Source: Cryomorphaceae bacterium (GTDB lineage: Bacteria; Bacteroidota; Bacteroidia; Flavobacteriales; Schleiferiaceae). From it: 64,000 nt of DNA. Below the pieces are notes generated by a model. The model was not told the DNA's origin. It saw nothing but the letters and a program-made list of their open reading frames with translations, and did not search any database. Positions 6,591 to 30,503 of the stretch are shown in pieces (within the stretch, counting starts at the first letter, position 1; each line of letters opens with the position of its first letter). The stretch lies in the NCBI GenBank assembly GCA_024638285.1, contig JAHEKP010000004.1, positions 1 through 64,000 on the forward strand. The letters run 5' to 3'. The position numbers and the translations under genes are program-made.

Positions 6591-9368
6591 ATGAGTAGCG
6601 TCAGATTAAGTAAAGCGACAAAAGAGCTTAACATTTCCTTAGACCGTGCGGTGGAGGAATTGGCTAAACATGGCCATGAAATTCCAAACAACCGGAACCA
6701 TAAAATCACGAACGATCAGTACGAGGTTTTAATGACGGCATTTGCCGATGACCTCGCGCGTAAAAAGCGTTCTGAAGAGGTAAGTCAGCAAGTAAAAGAG
6801 GAAAAAGAAATTCTTAGAGGGACTAAGGATACGGTTGCGGCACCTGTTGAGGAAGCAGCACCTGCGCCCACGCCCGTCGAAGAGGCACCTGTCGTTGAGG
6901 CTCCTAAAGAAGCCGCTCCTGAAAAGTCAGTGCCTGCCCCAGAAGAGGTTCCTGCAGCAGCGCCAACTGTTGAAGCAGCAGCAGTTGAGGCACCTAAGAA
7001 AATCGAAGTTGAAGCACCGAAAGAAAGCTCTACTGATACTGGAGGGATTAAGGTGATGGGTAAAATTGATTTGGAGGCTCAAAAGCCAAAGAAGAAAGAA
7101 GCCCCAGTGCAACCTAAAAAGGTAGCGCCTACTAAGAAATCTTCTGGTAGCGGAGCACATAATGCACCGAAGCCCGTGGAGAAAGCTCCTGTAAAAGTAG
7201 AAGAACCTCAGGCGCCTCAGGATCAAGAGATCAAAACGAAATACGTTAAGATTGACGGCCCTAAGTTTACGGGACAAAAAATTGTACTTCCGGTTGAAAA
7301 GCCAAAGGACAATAAGAAGAAGCGTACGCGCATCAAAAAGCAAGGTCCTGGAGCAGCGACACCAGCACAAAACGATCCTAAAAACCGCAACAATACTCGA
7401 GGTCCTCAGAAAAAGGGACCAGGCGCAGGACGCGGTCGTAAACAGCCCGTCGTTGCGAAACAAGAATTAACAGACGAACAAATCCAGAAACAAATCAAGG
7501 AAACCCTTGAGAAGTTAACGTCTGGAAAGAAAAATAAAGGCGCCAAAATCCGTCGTGATAAGCGTGCAGAACGTCGTGAGCGAGAAGAACTTGCGGATAT
7601 TCAGGCAGCGGAAGACAGCAAAGTATTGCAGGTAACGGAATTCGTTACGGTTACTGAGCTGGCGAACATGATGGATGTATCGGTGAATGAAGTCATTGGT
7701 TCGTTGATGGGTGTGGGTGTGATGGTAACCATGAACCAGCGTTTGGATGCAGAGATGCTCGAGATGGTGGCAGAGGAATTTGGCTTCAGCGTCAATTTCG
7801 TCGATGAAGAGGTTACAGAATCGTTCCTTGAAGAAGAAGATAAAGAAGAGGATCTAAAGCCGCGTTCCCCGATTGTTACTGTTATGGGACACGTCGATCA
7901 CGGTAAGACTTCATTATTGGATTACGTTCGAAAGGCAAACGTGATCGCCGGAGAAGCCGGGGGGATTACCCAGCACATTGGCGCATACAGCGTTAAAGTA
8001 CATACCGGACAGACCATTACGTTCTTAGATACGCCAGGTCACGAGGCCTTTACCGCCATGCGTGCTCGGGGTGCTCAAGTGACGGATATTGCGATTATTG
8101 TTGTTGCTGCAGATGATGCAGTAATGCCACAAACTAAAGAAGCCATTTCGCATGCTCAAGCAGCCGGTGTTCCGATTGTTATTGCAATTAACAAAGTAGA
8201 CCGTGAGGTTGCTAACCCGAATAAAATCAAAGAACAATTGGCGCAAGAAAACGTCCTTGTTGAGGATTGGGGAGGCAGCGTACAGTGCCAAGAAATTTCG
8301 GCAAAAACAGGGTTGAACATAGAGGAGTTGTTGGATAAGGTCATCTTGGAGGCAGAGATGCTTGATTTGAAAGCCAATCCAAACAAAAACGCAAGTGGTA
8401 CTATCGTGGAAGCTTCGTTGGATAAAGGTCGTGGATACATGTGTACTGCGTTGATTCAATCCGGAACCATGAAGGTGGGTGATTACGTACTCGCTGGTCA
8501 ACACAGCGGTAAGGTTAAAGCTATGCTCGATGAACGTGGCAATCGCATCAAAGTAGCGGGCCCTTCTACCCCAGTGAACCTATTAGGTTTGGACGGTGCG
8601 CCAACCTCTGGTGATCGTTTCATCATCATGGATGATGAAAGAGAAGCAAAGCAAATTGCTCAGAAACGTTTACAGCTTCAGCGCGAGCAAAGTGTTCGTT
8701 CGCAGAAACAAATGACGCTCGAAGAAATTGGACGCCGCTTGAAGGTTGGAGACTTCCAAGAGCTCAACATTATTCTTAAGGGTGATGTGGACGGTTCTGT
8801 AGAAGCACTTTCTGATTCGTTACAAAAATTAACCACTGAGGAAATTCAGGTGAACATCATACATAAGGGTGTGGGTCAGATTTCCGAAAGTGATGTATTG
8901 TTGGCTACGGCCTCTCAAGCCATTGTCGTTGGTTTCCAAGTTCGACCATCTGCTCAAGCGCGTAAGCTTGCGGAGAAAGAGGAAGTGGAAATCCGCATGT
9001 ACTCCATTATTTATGATGCGATCAATGAAGTGCGCGATGCCATGGAAGGCATGCTTTCTGCTGAGGTCAAAGAAGAGATTAAGGGTACGGCTGAGATTCG
9101 TGAAACATTCAAGATATCCAAAGTTGGAACCATCGCAGGATGTATGGTTACTGACGGGGTGATTGAGCGCAATAATGACGTGCGTATCATTCGCGATGGC
9201 GTGGTGGTGTACACTGGGAAACTTGGTTCACTCAAGCGCTTTAAGGACGATGCAAAGGAAGTTCGTCAAGGCTTTGAATGTGGTCTTAACATTGAAAAAT
9301 TCAATGATATCAAAGTAGGAGATATCGTAGAAGCCTTTGGATTCACAGAGGTGAAGCGTACGCTCTAA
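6591..9368 (+). CDS. infB: Translation initiation factor IF-2
   Basis: 925 residues. The N-terminus (1-50) is an IF2_N fold; residues about 70-340 are low-complexity and rich in Ala, Pro, Glu, Lys and Arg, as is common for long IF-2 forms. A second IF2_N domain (about 345-410) precedes the GTPase: G1 G-H-V-D-H-G-K-T at 433-440, G3 D-T-P-G-H at 480-484 and G4 N-K-V-D at 534-537. Beta-barrel domains and the C-terminal initiator-tRNA-binding domain follow. IF-2 places fMet-tRNA on the 30S subunit and drives subunit joining. It is the last gene of the operon, closed by a strong terminator at 9394. The repeat-rich region makes many false antisense reading frames. Confidence 0.98.
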
Positions 9369-26911: not shown

Positions 26912-27094
26912 TTAAGCCTTTTCCATAACTACCTTACCCTTGTAGTACAACTTACCTTCGTGCCAATGCGCGCGGTGGTACAGGTGGGCTTCACCAGTGG
27001 TTGGGCAGATAGCCAATTGCTGATCAGCTGCCTTGTAGTGTGTTCTACGCTTGTCTCTTCTCGTGCTCGACTGTCTGCGTTTAGGATGTGCCAT
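26912..27094 (-). CDS. rpmF: 50S ribosomal protein L32
   Basis: 60 residues. The basic N-terminus ([19 protein letters not shown]) is diagnostic for L32. The zinc-ribbon cysteines of some L32 forms are mostly absent: only C29 remains, in C-P-T-T-G, which I expect for the zinc-free form of Flavobacteria-type organisms. It is 10 bases downstream of the DUF177 gene, a pairing known across bacteria (YceD-rpmF). Confidence 0.96.
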
Positions 27095-27104
27095 CTCTAC
27101 TTAA

Positions 27105-27605
27105 TTATTTATTCAACAAGTTTTTTAGTTGATCCCATCTAGGATCTGTCTTTTCTTCTATTTCGTCTTCTTCCTCTTCAATGAAATCCTCAATGCCGTT
27201 ACCTGCGTTTGGTCCTAAGAGCTTTGATGGAATACTGAGCACTACTAACTCGTAGATCATTTGACCTGCGTTGAATTCGTAGTTGCCATGCGGCAAAATG
27301 AGGAGTTCCTCATTTTCATCGTTGTATTCATCGCCGAACTTAATCTGCATCGCAAAGCTGTTTTCAAGCGCCTGTAAATACATTTCGTTCGTAATGTCAC
27401 AAGGCGCTTCGATGGCTCCGGTAAAACGCAATTCTAAATCTAGAACAGTTTCACTTTTCAACATCTTAAGCTCAGCCGATCCACTTAAACCGCGGTAGTC
27501 TGAATATTCAAAGAGCGTAAAGAACGTGTCATCCAAATCATACTGGAATTCATGTGGTCCTAACGCTAAGCCTCTAAAGGCAATATCAAAATCGCGTTTT
27601 TTCAC
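27105..27605 (-). CDS. DUF177 (YceD-like) protein
   Basis: 166 residues with an N-terminal K-R-D-F-D-I-A-F-R-G-L segment, a central L-x-L-R-F-T-G-A-I-E-A-P-C-D motif, and an acidic tail (E-E-E-E-D-E-I-E-E). The C-terminal D-P-R-W-D-Q-L-K-N-L is a family hallmark. This family sits upstream of rpmF and has been linked to 23S rRNA or ribosome biogenesis; its exact reaction is not known to me. It begins at GTG 27605, 27 bases after an exact -7 box at 27632-27639, so the DUF177-rpmF pair has its own promoter within the minus-strand cluster. Confidence 0.9.
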   Translation of the reverse strand: MKKRDFDIAFRGLALGPHEFQYDLDDTFFTLFEYSDYRGLSGSAELKMLKSETVLDLELRFTGAIEAPCDITNEMYLQALENSFAMQIKFGDEYNDENEELLILPHGNYEFNAGQMIYELVVLSIPSKLLGPNAGNGIEDFIEEEEDEIEEKTDPRWDQLKNLLNK

Positions 27606-27631
27606 AGGTCAAGTATCACTGAATGAGCGGG

Positions 27632-27639
27632 CAAAGATA
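27632..27639 (-). promoter_or_regulatory. Bacteroidota -7 box (TATCTTTG) for DUF177-rpmF
   Basis: Exact TAnnTTTG on the minus strand, in the 53-bp gap between pdxA and the DUF177 gene. Supports the GTG start at 27605. Confidence 0.55.
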
Positions 27640-27658
27640 TTGAAATTGTTGAAAACTT

Positions 27659-29083
27659 CTAACTCTTCTCTTTTTGTTTTTTTAGCGGATCTTTTGTCAT
27701 TTCATCATACCCCTTTCGCGCATGGTAAACTTCAATAGCTGTGTAGAGGGCATTTCTCATGGAAGTAGCATCAGCCTTGCCTTTACCAGCAAGGTGCATG
27801 GCTGTTCCATGATCTGGTGAGGTACGAACTAATTCTAGACCTGCGGTGAAATTGGTTCCACTTCCCATCGCTAAAGATTTAAAAGGAACCAACACTTGGT
27901 CGTGGTACATGCCTAAAACGGCATCAAATTTTGACTCATAGCCCTGTCCGAAGAAACCATCTGCTGGAAACGGTCCTTTAACCACCGCATCTTTGTATTG
28001 CACTTTTTGTATTGCAGGGCGAATGATTTCTTGTTCTTCGCTTCCAATTGTTCCCATCTCACCTGCATGCGGGTTGAGTCCGAGCACAGCAATTCGTGGT
28101 TTTATGATGCCAAAGTCTCGTTTTAAACTTTGTGCAAGCAGCTCGATGGACGTACAGATAGACGCTTCCGTAATTCCTTCTGCCACTTTAGAAATGGGCA
28201 CATGGCCGGTTACTGTGGCCACTTTTAATTGGTCTGACGTTAAAATCATCAGGACTTCATTGCCAAATTGATTAGCGAGATACCCAGTATGACCTGAAAA
28301 GCCCTCGACGCTTGCGGCGATGTTGTGTTTATTGATAGGCGCAGTGAGCAGTGCCTGAATCTGCCCGGCTTTTGCAGCCTCAATAGCGGCATCTATACTT
28401 TTTAGTGCATAAGCGCCGCTCACATCAGTGGGTATGCCTAAAGTAAGTTCAACATTGTCGTCCCAACTTAATACGAGGTTGTTTGCACCTTCCTTAATGT
28501 CTTCAATGGTATCGCAAAGTTGGAATTGAAAATCGCGTTTATTGATTGCGTTTCTATGGTAGGAAGCCAATTTGCTCGAAGCAAAGACCACTGGGGTGCA
28601 CAATTCGGTAAGTCGGGTATCCTCTAACATTGAAATGATAACCTCCATTCCTATGCCGTTTAAGTCGCCACAAGTGATTCCAACTACTGGTTTTTCTAGC
28701 ACCGTTTCTTTATGGACCACTGTAGCTGCTGCACTTGAAAAATCAATGTCGTAAAGGTCATTTTGTAAGTCGTATTCGGCCTGAATTTCTTCACTTACCG
28801 GAGTCGCTTTTACGTCCTTTCCTTCGCGGCGTTTGTTTCGATTGTTTCGATTGCGACCACGGTTGTTTCTATTTCCGCCGGCGCCCTCCTCTTTTGGGCC
28901 ATTTTCTGAAGCCTTCGCTGGTTTAGACTGGGCATTTGCCCCCTCTTGAGCTTCGCCTTCATTTTTACCGCGGTTACGGTTTCTATTTCTACCACCTCTA
29001 CTTCTTCTCCTGGCATTGCCCTCTTTATTCTGGCCGTCAGGAGTATTGGGTTTGTTTGGTGTATTTTCTTTAGCGTCACTCAT
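27659..29083 (-). CDS. pdxA: 4-hydroxythreonine-4-phosphate dehydrogenase with Arg/Asn-rich N-terminal extension
   Basis: 474 residues, about 125 longer than usual PdxA. Residues 131-470 are PdxA: G-I-T-C-G-D-L-N-G-I-G at the start and metal-ligand histidines H265 (F-S-G-H-T-G-Y), H339 (N-P-H-A-G) and H394 (Y-H-D-Q-V). It oxidises 4-phosphohydroxythreonine for pyridoxal phosphate synthesis. Residues 1-90 are low-complexity, with Arg/Asn/Gly runs (R-R-R-S-R-G-G-R-N-R-N-R-N-R-G and N-R-N-N-R-G-R-N-R-N-N-R-N) resembling disordered RNA-binding tails. Residues 91-130 are a less biased linker. No ATG occurs between codons 1 and 146, so the extension is part of the frame. It is 4 bases after the aminopeptidase. 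Confidence 0.9.
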   Translation of the reverse strand: MSDAKENTPNKPNTPDGQNKEGNARRRSRGGRNRNRNRGKNEGEAQEGANAQSKPAKASENGPKEEGAGGNRNNRGRNRNNRNKRREGKDVKATPVSEEIQAEYDLQNDLYDIDFSSAAATVVHKETVLEKPVVGITCGDLNGIGMEVIISMLEDTRLTELCTPVVFASSKLASYHRNAINKRDFQFQLCDTIEDIKEGANNLVLSWDDNVELTLGIPTDVSGAYALKSIDAAIEAAKAGQIQALLTAPINKHNIAASVEGFSGHTGYLANQFGNEVLMILTSDQLKVATVTGHVPISKVAEGITEASICTSIELLAQSLKRDFGIIKPRIAVLGLNPHAGEMGTIGSEEQEIIRPAIQKVQYKDAVVKGPFPADGFFGQGYESKFDAVLGMYHDQVLVPFKSLAMGSGTNFTAGLELVRTSPDHGTAMHLAGKGKADATSMRNALYTAIEVYHARKGYDEMTKDPLKKQKEKS

Positions 29084-29087
29084 AGTG

Positions 29088-30503
29088 TTACTTCAGGTTG
29101 TTTATGAAATCGAAAAGTAAACGGACCCCGATGCCGGTTCCGCCTTCGACTTGGTAGCCGGCTCGCGATTTCAAAAATGCTGGCCCAGCGATATCTAAGT
29201 GAATGTAAGGATAATCGGTGAAGTGCTCTAGGAATTTACCTGCAGTAATGGCTCCTGCCTCCGCGCCTCCAATGTTTTTCATATCTGCAATGGGACTTTT
29301 CAACAAGTCTTTGTATTCATCCCAAAATGGAAATTCAACTACACGTTCGTGGGTGCGGTAGCCGCTTTCCTGAAGTGCCAGCATGCGCTCTTTTGATGCA
29401 TTTCCCATTCCTACAATCGCGTAACGACCTATGGCTCTTGCGGCAGCTCCCGTTAAGGTTGCGAGGTCGATTACTAATTCAGGACTGTAGCGTTTTGCGT
29501 ACACTAAGGCGTCAGCTAAAATTAATCGGCCTTCTGCATCGGTATTCATGACCTCCACACTAGTGCCGTCTGAAATGGTAATGACATCACCTGGTGTCAC
29601 AGCATTCCCTCCTGGGCGGTTATCTGTAGCAGGAACGAGGCCTATGATATGTACTGGAAGATCTGCTTCTGCTGCTGCGCTCATGGCTCCAATAACTGCA
29701 GCAGCGCCTCCCATATCAGATTTCATATCGTCCATAAAGTTCGATGGCTTGAGGCTTAAACCACCAGTATCGTAGACTACCCCCTTACCGACTAAAACGA
29801 GCGGTTTTTCATTGGTTGCATTTTTCGGTTTGTGTTCCATGATGATGAACACTGGAGGTTCAGTAGAACCGTAATTAACAGCCAATAATCCGCCCATCTT
29901 GAGGCTTTCGATCTGTTTTTTCTCCAGGACTTCTATAGAAAAACCGTGACGTTTACTGGCCTCTTTTGCTTGATTAGCAAGATCAGTTGCTGTTAAATCA
30001 ATGACGGGAGTATTGACCAATTCACGCGCAAAGAGCGTACCCATAGTCGCATTGACAATGGGGCTTAGGGTTTGTTCATTTTCTTTTGAAACGAACAATT
30101 GGGCCATCGAATTTTTACGTTTGTGGCTATCTGAGAAGTAGCGGAGGAATTGGTAATTACCAAGAATGGCTCCTTCTGCTACATACGGTACATGTGCGCC
30201 TAAAATCGCAATGCGGTCGAGGTGTGCGGCATTTGCCTTCAGCACTAGTTTATTGCCCGCTTGACGCATTTTTTCTGCGCGTGTATCAGCATCTACAGTT
30301 TTTCCAAGCTTATACACCCAAGCTGTATCTGTGCCTGCCTGAACCTCCAGCCATTTTTCTTCAAACTTTTCACTAAGTGCATGAACACGCTCGAGTTGGG
30401 CTACGTTCAAATGGCTTGAAAGTTCTTTTGTGTCGGTATAAACAATAGCTAGGCTGCCATTGTAATCAGGAGTGTATGTTGTGATTTTCATTGCTTCTTT
30501 CAT
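29088..30503 (-). CDS. Leucyl aminopeptidase (M17 family)
   Basis: 471 residues. The C-terminal M17 domain has metal and catalytic residues K240, D245 (V-G-K-G-V-V-Y-D-T-G-G), K252, D263 and D322, E324, R326 (N-T-D-A-E-G-R-L). It removes N-terminal residues from peptides in the cytoplasm; no signal peptide. The N-terminal 170 residues are the poorly conserved regulatory domain. ATG at 30503 or a second ATG at 30491 could be the start; the -7 box ends 7 bases before the first, so the second would leave a short leader. Forms one transcript with pdxA, overlapping only by near contact. Confidence 0.93.
   Translation of the reverse strand: MKEAMKITTYTPDYNGSLAIVYTDTKELSSHLNVAQLERVHALSEKFEEKWLEVQAGTDTAWVYKLGKTVDADTRAEKMRQAGNKLVLKANAAHLDRIAILGAHVPYVAEGAILGNYQFLRYFSDSHKRKNSMAQLFVSKENEQTLSPIVNATMGTLFARELVNTPVIDLTATDLANQAKEASKRHGFSIEVLEKKQIESLKMGGLLAVNYGSTEPPVFIIMEHKPKNATNEKPLVLVGKGVVYDTGGLSLKPSNFMDDMKSDMGGAAAVIGAMSAAAEADLPVHIIGLVPATDNRPGGNAVTPGDVITISDGTSVEVMNTDAEGRLILADALVYAKRYSPELVIDLATLTGAAARAIGRYAIVGMGNASKERMLALQESGYRTHERVVEFPFWDEYKDLLKSPIADMKNIGGAEAGAITAGKFLEHFTDYPYIHLDIAGPAFLKSRAGYQVEGGTGIGVRLLFDFINNLK

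Follow-up and report, generated by a model that had tools for sequence, protein, structure and literature searches.

The stretch of DNA analysed here, referred to as the window, comprises 64,000 nucleotides of contig JAHEKP010000004.1 (assembly GCA_024638285.1) of a Cryomorphaceae bacterium, and holds on its minus strand a gene for the vitamin B6 enzyme PdxA. Its 474-aa open reading frame spans 27662-29083 (27659-29083 with the stop codon), starting from the ATG at 29081-29083. The features of the locus, in the order in which they are read, are as follows:

29088-30503, minus strand: pepA-like M17 aminopeptidase gene, directly upstream of pdxA, with 4 nt from its stop to the pdxA ATG
27662-29083, minus strand: pdxA coding frame, 474 codons with the stop left out, encoding tail and PdxA domain (open reading frame, translation, Pfam)
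28694-29083, minus strand: N-terminal extension, residues 1-130 (Pfam, alignment with solved sequences, genus copies, dN/dS)
29057-29083, minus strand: N-terminal motif, residues 1-9 (MS[DE] and Asn7 in 26/26 copies)
28964-29011, minus strand: Arg/Asn block 1, residues 25-40 (genus copies compared)
28874-28963, minus strand: variable mixed-charge spacer (Glu, Gly, Ala), residues 41-70, absent from one genus copy (L024, genome G020)
28826-28873, minus strand: Arg/Asn block 2, residues 71-86 (genus copies compared)
28739-28819, minus strand: linker, residues 89-115, with an invariant VKA in its part 89-99 and then an acidic stretch (VKA in 26/26 copies)
27662-28693, minus strand: PdxA domain and short basic C-terminus, residues 131-474, with His 294, 339 and 394 (Pfam, 4jqp alignment)
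27621-27658, minus strand: conserved promoter-like block between pdxA and YceD, with TATCTTTG (genus loci compared)
27105-27605, minus strand: YceD (DUF177) gene with a GTG start (Pfam)
26912-27094, minus strand: rpmF, ribosomal protein L32 (Pfam)

Residues 160-449 match the Pfam PdxA family (PF04166) over the whole profile (positions 1-286 of 286) with 331.4 bits, against a curated cut-off of 27, and four histidines (265, 294, 339 and 394) pair in the alignment with histidines of the solved enzyme 4jqp. His 294, 339 and 394, which sit in VTGHVPI, NPHAGE and YHDQ respectively, are those which we take to be the metal-binding triad of PdxA, and by this alignment the triad is complete. Residues 1-130 gave only a chance-level match to Pfam (E 0.94), and none of the 15 solved sequences matching the window protein, all of 316-367 residues, aligns in its best stretch to residues 1-125. 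The original prediction, made from the sequence of the window, that PdxA carries here a 130-residue Arg/Asn/Gly-rich extension which the enzyme normally lacks, is thus borne out on both points, its coordinates being 28694-29083 rather than from 28693. At the other end, a short Lys-rich C-terminus of the NPLKK type (window 27662-27720) is frequent on PdxA of the family, and may represent the simplest form of basic tail.

The 130 residues of the extension are poor in hydrophobics and rich in arginine, asparagine and glycine, which together make up 51% of residues 7-96, the highest share among the 48 window frames of at least 150 aa beginning with Met (next, 32%). The Arg+Asn fraction per 60 residues also places pdxA first among 50 window ORFs (0.43; next, 0.22). 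All six Arg codons are used within the Arg/Asn tracts, which are thus not a fresh DNA repeat. The mean hydropathy of the tail lies under the disorder boundary of the charge-hydropathy plot in 26/26 genus copies, and on the basis of composition the tail is predicted to be disordered; structure prediction for three sequences gave a confident model of neither core nor tail (mean pLDDT 31.7). Since the net charge is low (+1 to +8 across the genus copies), a simple polycation model is wrong and weak multivalent binding is likelier. As far as sequence analysis goes, the gene is best explained as encoding an otherwise ordinary PdxA whose N-terminal tail, rich in Arg, Asn and Gly, is translated and intrinsically disordered.

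The extension was to be sought in related genomes, and it proved to be present in 26/26 close copies, from 25/25 genus genomes examined, one of the copies being truncated on its C-terminal side by a contig end. The position of the ATG start is common to all 26, as are MS[DE], Asn7 and VKA, while the length of the tail varies from 87 to 141 aa and the Arg/Asn blocks are only loosely conserved; in the copy without a spacer the two blocks adjoin. Within three subgroups, representing 19/26 copies, pooled pairwise Nei-Gojobori estimates gave a tail dN/dS of 0.128, 0.121 and 0.133, versus 0.043, 0.047 and 0.047 for the core; the values are rough, with a loose tail alignment and, for two of the three groups, a dS at or above about 1, but still lie far below 1. 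An overlapping gene was rejected, as each non-coding frame of the tail is interrupted by stops in at least 20/26 copies. The substitution pattern thus shows the tail to be under purifying selection as a protein. One bin (G023) contributes three pdxA matches (L009, L026 and L027), the last of them a divergent further pdxA of 31% identity without the tail, and is probably a mixed bin.

Outside the genus, the family (88 genomes in 19 genera, with a pdxA match in 86/88) has no such tail in any of the 25 loci whose N-termini were read, from 17 of the 18 other genera; the remaining genus, g9, is known only as an open frame of 374. In these genera PdxA begins directly after pepA: the distance from the pepA stop to the core, measurable in 23/25 loci, is 20-52 nt, as against 286-451 nt in 23/26 genus copies, which indicates that the genus ancestor gained a few hundred nucleotides here. 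Run over 395 genomes of the order, a 13-tail profile found beyond the genus nothing except one weak match in a 44-codon frame (G271), which was taken as chance, and the window's own genome holds no further match to the tail. The tail would accordingly have been acquired once, before the genus radiated, by way of the nucleotides added after the pepA stop and ahead of the core, and selection would since have maintained its composition and the short motifs at both ends. In the order sample 146/153 genomes have a pdxA match, and six frames reach at least 430 codons: two belong to this genus, one to G178 and one to G111, both of them upstream read-through, and two, those of G110 and G099, bear C-tails and not N-tails. 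Several long frames were discarded: those of G111 and G158, as well as 13/15 in one locus set, are upstream read-through, and in G030 and G032 the frame of 477 codons overlaps pepA, its ATG lying at the core. In family f1, mostly in genus g17, pdxA matches with internal stop codons were seen (G059, G064, G082, G083 and G084), and G069 and G074 of g17 have no pdxA match.

Tails on PdxA are not confined to this genus. In a phylum sample of 395 genomes, long PdxA frames flagged another family of the same class, f24, among the best-scoring matches listed. Genus g133 of this family, with 14 loci classed, has N-tails some 155-360 residues long in which Arg, Asn, Gln, Gly and Pro abound, and N-tails were also read in g142, g264, g278 and g289. 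Open frames in a sample of 150 f24 genomes reach 511-709 in 17/17 g133 genomes, 606-697 in 5/5 of g142 and 659-696 in 4/4 of g264. A further N-tail of about 280 residues was found in g325 of family f77 (2 genomes), so that N-tails outside the genus span about 70-360 aa, with net charges of -7 to +10. C-terminal tails of 84-262 residues occur in g280 and g323 (three read in each) and at two f13 loci from two genera. Of the 121 loci classed, 47 have an N-tail (counted after L086, labelled a tail by rule, was relabelled by hand), 8 a C-tail and none both, counts which are not frequencies because many loci were chosen for their long frames. Five N-tail pairs from other lineages gave dN/dS values of 0.05-0.32; for two C-tail pairs dS was saturated, and hence no value was obtained. 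As a separate observation, PdxA of four f24 loci (L079, L131, L132 and L138) seems to bear an insertion within the catalytic domain, rich in Ala, Pro and Thr in L079 and deduced in the other three from a split or shifted core match.

On a core tree of 97 sequences the N label requires three changes and the C label four, with starred branches forcing three each; the tree is a quick one with several long branches, and each change may be a gain or a loss. Nevertheless, the genus, f24 and g325 lie far apart from one another, which speaks for separate gains of the N-tail. Homology between the tails of different lineages was rejected on a filtered search, since with the low-complexity filter on the genus tail matched no other N-tail under E 1 (best E 0.005 with the filter off), and they are treated as separate, although not proved so. 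The loci read demonstrate recurrence, and comparable tails, N- or C-terminal, appear to have arisen on PdxA in other Bacteroidota lineages.

The original prediction had also tied the tail to the adjacent ribosome-related genes, a proposal which these comparisons do not support. Pfam confirms the neighbours (YceD or DUF177, L32, FabH and lumazine-binding genes), and the order pepA-pdxA-YceD-rpmF is mostly kept in the tail-less relatives of the family; around the tail-bearing pdxA of f24 and f77, tblastn with the window proteins gave no match to pepA, YceD, rpmF or fabH within the flanks covered (about 1-2 kb, 20 kb in one genome), where short diverged YceD or L32 could be missed. Tail and ribosome-related neighbours therefore do not go together. 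Moreover, a nearly invariant block of about 40 nt separates the pdxA stop from the YceD start and contains TAnnTTTG, a Bacteroidota promoter element, in 25/25 genus loci examined. This block (27621-27658) is probably a promoter of YceD-rpmF, which suggests that these two genes can be transcribed separately.

Composition of this type was then looked for in other proteins. In the 25 genus genomes the exact (Arg-Asn)3 codon pattern has 105 matches, versus 12 for a reversed control; it falls in pdxA in 22/25 genomes and in the gene of a PSP1-domain (RicT-like) protein, a family with a role in RNA maturation, in 8/25. Two genomes (G002 and G017) have no match at all, G010 has none in pdxA, and in the window's own genome the pattern matches pdxA only, so that by exact pattern no PSP1 tail is seen there. 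The eight PSP1-domain proteins (L153, L154, L155, L156, L157, L159, L160 and L163) carry a C-terminal (Arg-Asn)n tail; three were identified by Pfam and five by a common conserved stretch. Eleven further sites were each matched once or nearly so, and serine codons take part in seven of these. Of the four all-Arg sites that belong to neither pdxA nor PSP1, three fall in frames of 12-32 codons and were discarded as encoding no protein. When 301 ORFs from 398 kb of four genus genomes were ranked by Arg+Asn, three pdxA copies came 1-3, PSP1 proteins 4-6, two secreted-looking proteins 7-8 and IF-2 ninth; among 294 ORFs from 400 kb of G626, pdxA came second, after a protein matching no Pfam family. 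The stretches ranked were chosen knowing that some held pdxA or PSP1 (that of G626, a single one, for its pdxA), and thus only the ranks are informative. The high rank of the secreted-looking and Pfam-less proteins means that an Arg/Asn-rich stretch is no exclusive mark of an RNA protein. In the window itself, IF-2 (6591-9365) has a Lys/Arg/Asn/Gly-rich stretch ahead of its IF2_N domain, and Rho of the same genome has a charged, Asn-containing low-complexity stretch.

The retention of the tail throughout the genus, together with the similar tails of distant relatives, suggests that it does a job, for instance holding the enzyme near RNA. Starting from the anatomy and selection established above, we infer, as a tentative first choice, that the tail binds RNA or another polyanion in the manner of a condensate-type disordered region comparable to that of Bacteroidota Rho. 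The marks of such regions (long, poor in hydrophobics, biased in composition and kept in relatives) were found in 26/26 copies. The two Arg/Asn blocks, with the mixed-charge spacer between them, would provide weak multivalent binding to RNA or another polyanion, which would anchor PdxA to RNA-rich bodies or enrich it within them, in the way that its disordered region acts on Bacteroidota Rho; the stretch from VKA to DLY would serve as the link, or dock, between tail and enzyme. Since PdxA is a dimer, each enzyme would carry two tails. The suggestion that the tail binds RNA thus survives as an inference, from composition, purifying selection, recurrence and the like tails of PSP1-domain proteins in 8/25 genomes. 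A wider proposal, which at present is rather doubtful, is that PdxA has been repeatedly recruited in Bacteroidota as an RNA-associated metabolic enzyme, with tails coupling the synthesis of vitamin B6 (PLP) to RNA-rich condensates or to the state of translation; that separate lineages would each have added Arg/Asn-type disordered tails at whichever end was free is held with the same reserve.

The main rival, which has a real if lesser chance of being correct, sees in the tail an RNA-free disordered bristle or docking arm, serving solubility, assembly state or the recruitment of a partner such as PdxJ. The product of PdxA is unstable, and it may be handed over directly. Mixed charge with a low net charge, the short conserved motifs at both ends of the tail, which docking would predict, and the placement of tails at either terminus depending on the lineage all agree with such an arm, while the Arg/Asn make-up shared with the PSP1-domain protein in 8/25 genus genomes and, more weakly, with IF-2 speaks against it. 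Non-adaptive growth, in which the ends of PdxA tolerate the low-complexity sequence that these lineages tend to accumulate, is unlikely: the variable length (87-141 aa in the genus, up to about 360 aa elsewhere), the copy which lost the spacer between its repeats and the use of both termini are what it would leave behind, but the tail dN/dS of 0.12-0.13 in the genus and 0.05-0.32 in the five N-tail pairs elsewhere, with zero losses in 25 genus genomes, are not.

There is little chance that the enzyme lacks most of the tail, owing either to cleavage or to initiation at GTG. The original prediction held that no ATG lies between tail and core; this is right, although two in-frame GTG codons occur in the window, at residues 122 and 128, and from residue 16 to the core at least one ATG, GTG or TTG occurs in 22/26 copies. 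Against this, the start ATG, residue 7 and VKA are kept in 26/26 copies and the tail is under purifying selection. Furthermore, 4/26 copies have no alternative start of these three kinds in that interval, and in them PdxA can only be made with its tail, unless a rarer start codon is used; a general start near residue 125, which would have made the tail untranslated, was rejected on these grounds. Finally, the earlier suggestion of a relict gene fused to pdxA can practically be dismissed: the few hundred nucleotides between the pepA stop and the core are indeed absent from relatives, but in the family loci read pdxA usually follows pepA so closely that no gene would fit between them, and no donor, free-standing homologue or intervening gene was found in the window's own genome or, outside the genus, in the 395 genomes of the order, bar the 44-codon chance frame.

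The tail may be compared with known systems. With PdxA, 4-hydroxythreonine-4-phosphate dehydrogenase (PF04166; PDB 4jqp, 1ps6, 1ptm), the window protein has the whole catalytic domain in common, and differs in the residues 1-125 which none of the solved enzymes, of 316-367 residues, covers. RGG/RG-motif regions, defined by several closely spaced RGG triplets, resemble it as Arg/Gly-containing disordered stretches and plausible RNA binders; however, residues 1-130 contain a single RGG in translation, and the repeats are Arg-Asn, not Arg-Gly-Gly, so that the tail does not belong to this class. The PSP1-domain protein of the genus has an (Arg-Asn)n tail of similar make-up in 8/25 genomes, but at its C-terminus, in an RNA-maturation family, and not by pattern in the window's own genome. 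A further likeness is with the insertion of Bacteroidota Rho, where a conserved housekeeping protein also bears a compositionally biased disordered region, with biases for arginine, asparagine, aspartate and glycine (PMC10284900). Rho is an RNA-binding protein with an internal region, whereas PdxA is a metabolic enzyme with a terminal one, and the likeness drawn here is one of composition. Arg/Lys-rich disordered regions are described as condensing with RNA (PMC13269538). Within the open-licence PMC literature, which leaves aside subscription papers and preprints, no PdxA with such a tail was found, as judged by titles and the beginnings of abstracts; PdxA is already known, as are biased disordered regions on conserved Bacteroidota proteins (Rho), and what is new within that literature is a selected, recurrent tail on a B6 enzyme. 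For conserved bacterial proteins that bind RNA, Rho among them, disordered regions have been shown to alter the behaviour of the protein (PMC10284900). If the present reading is true, such effects would extend to metabolism, through a recurrent tail kept by selection on an enzyme of small-molecule biosynthesis, and the existence of sister genera with and without the tail makes the question directly testable.
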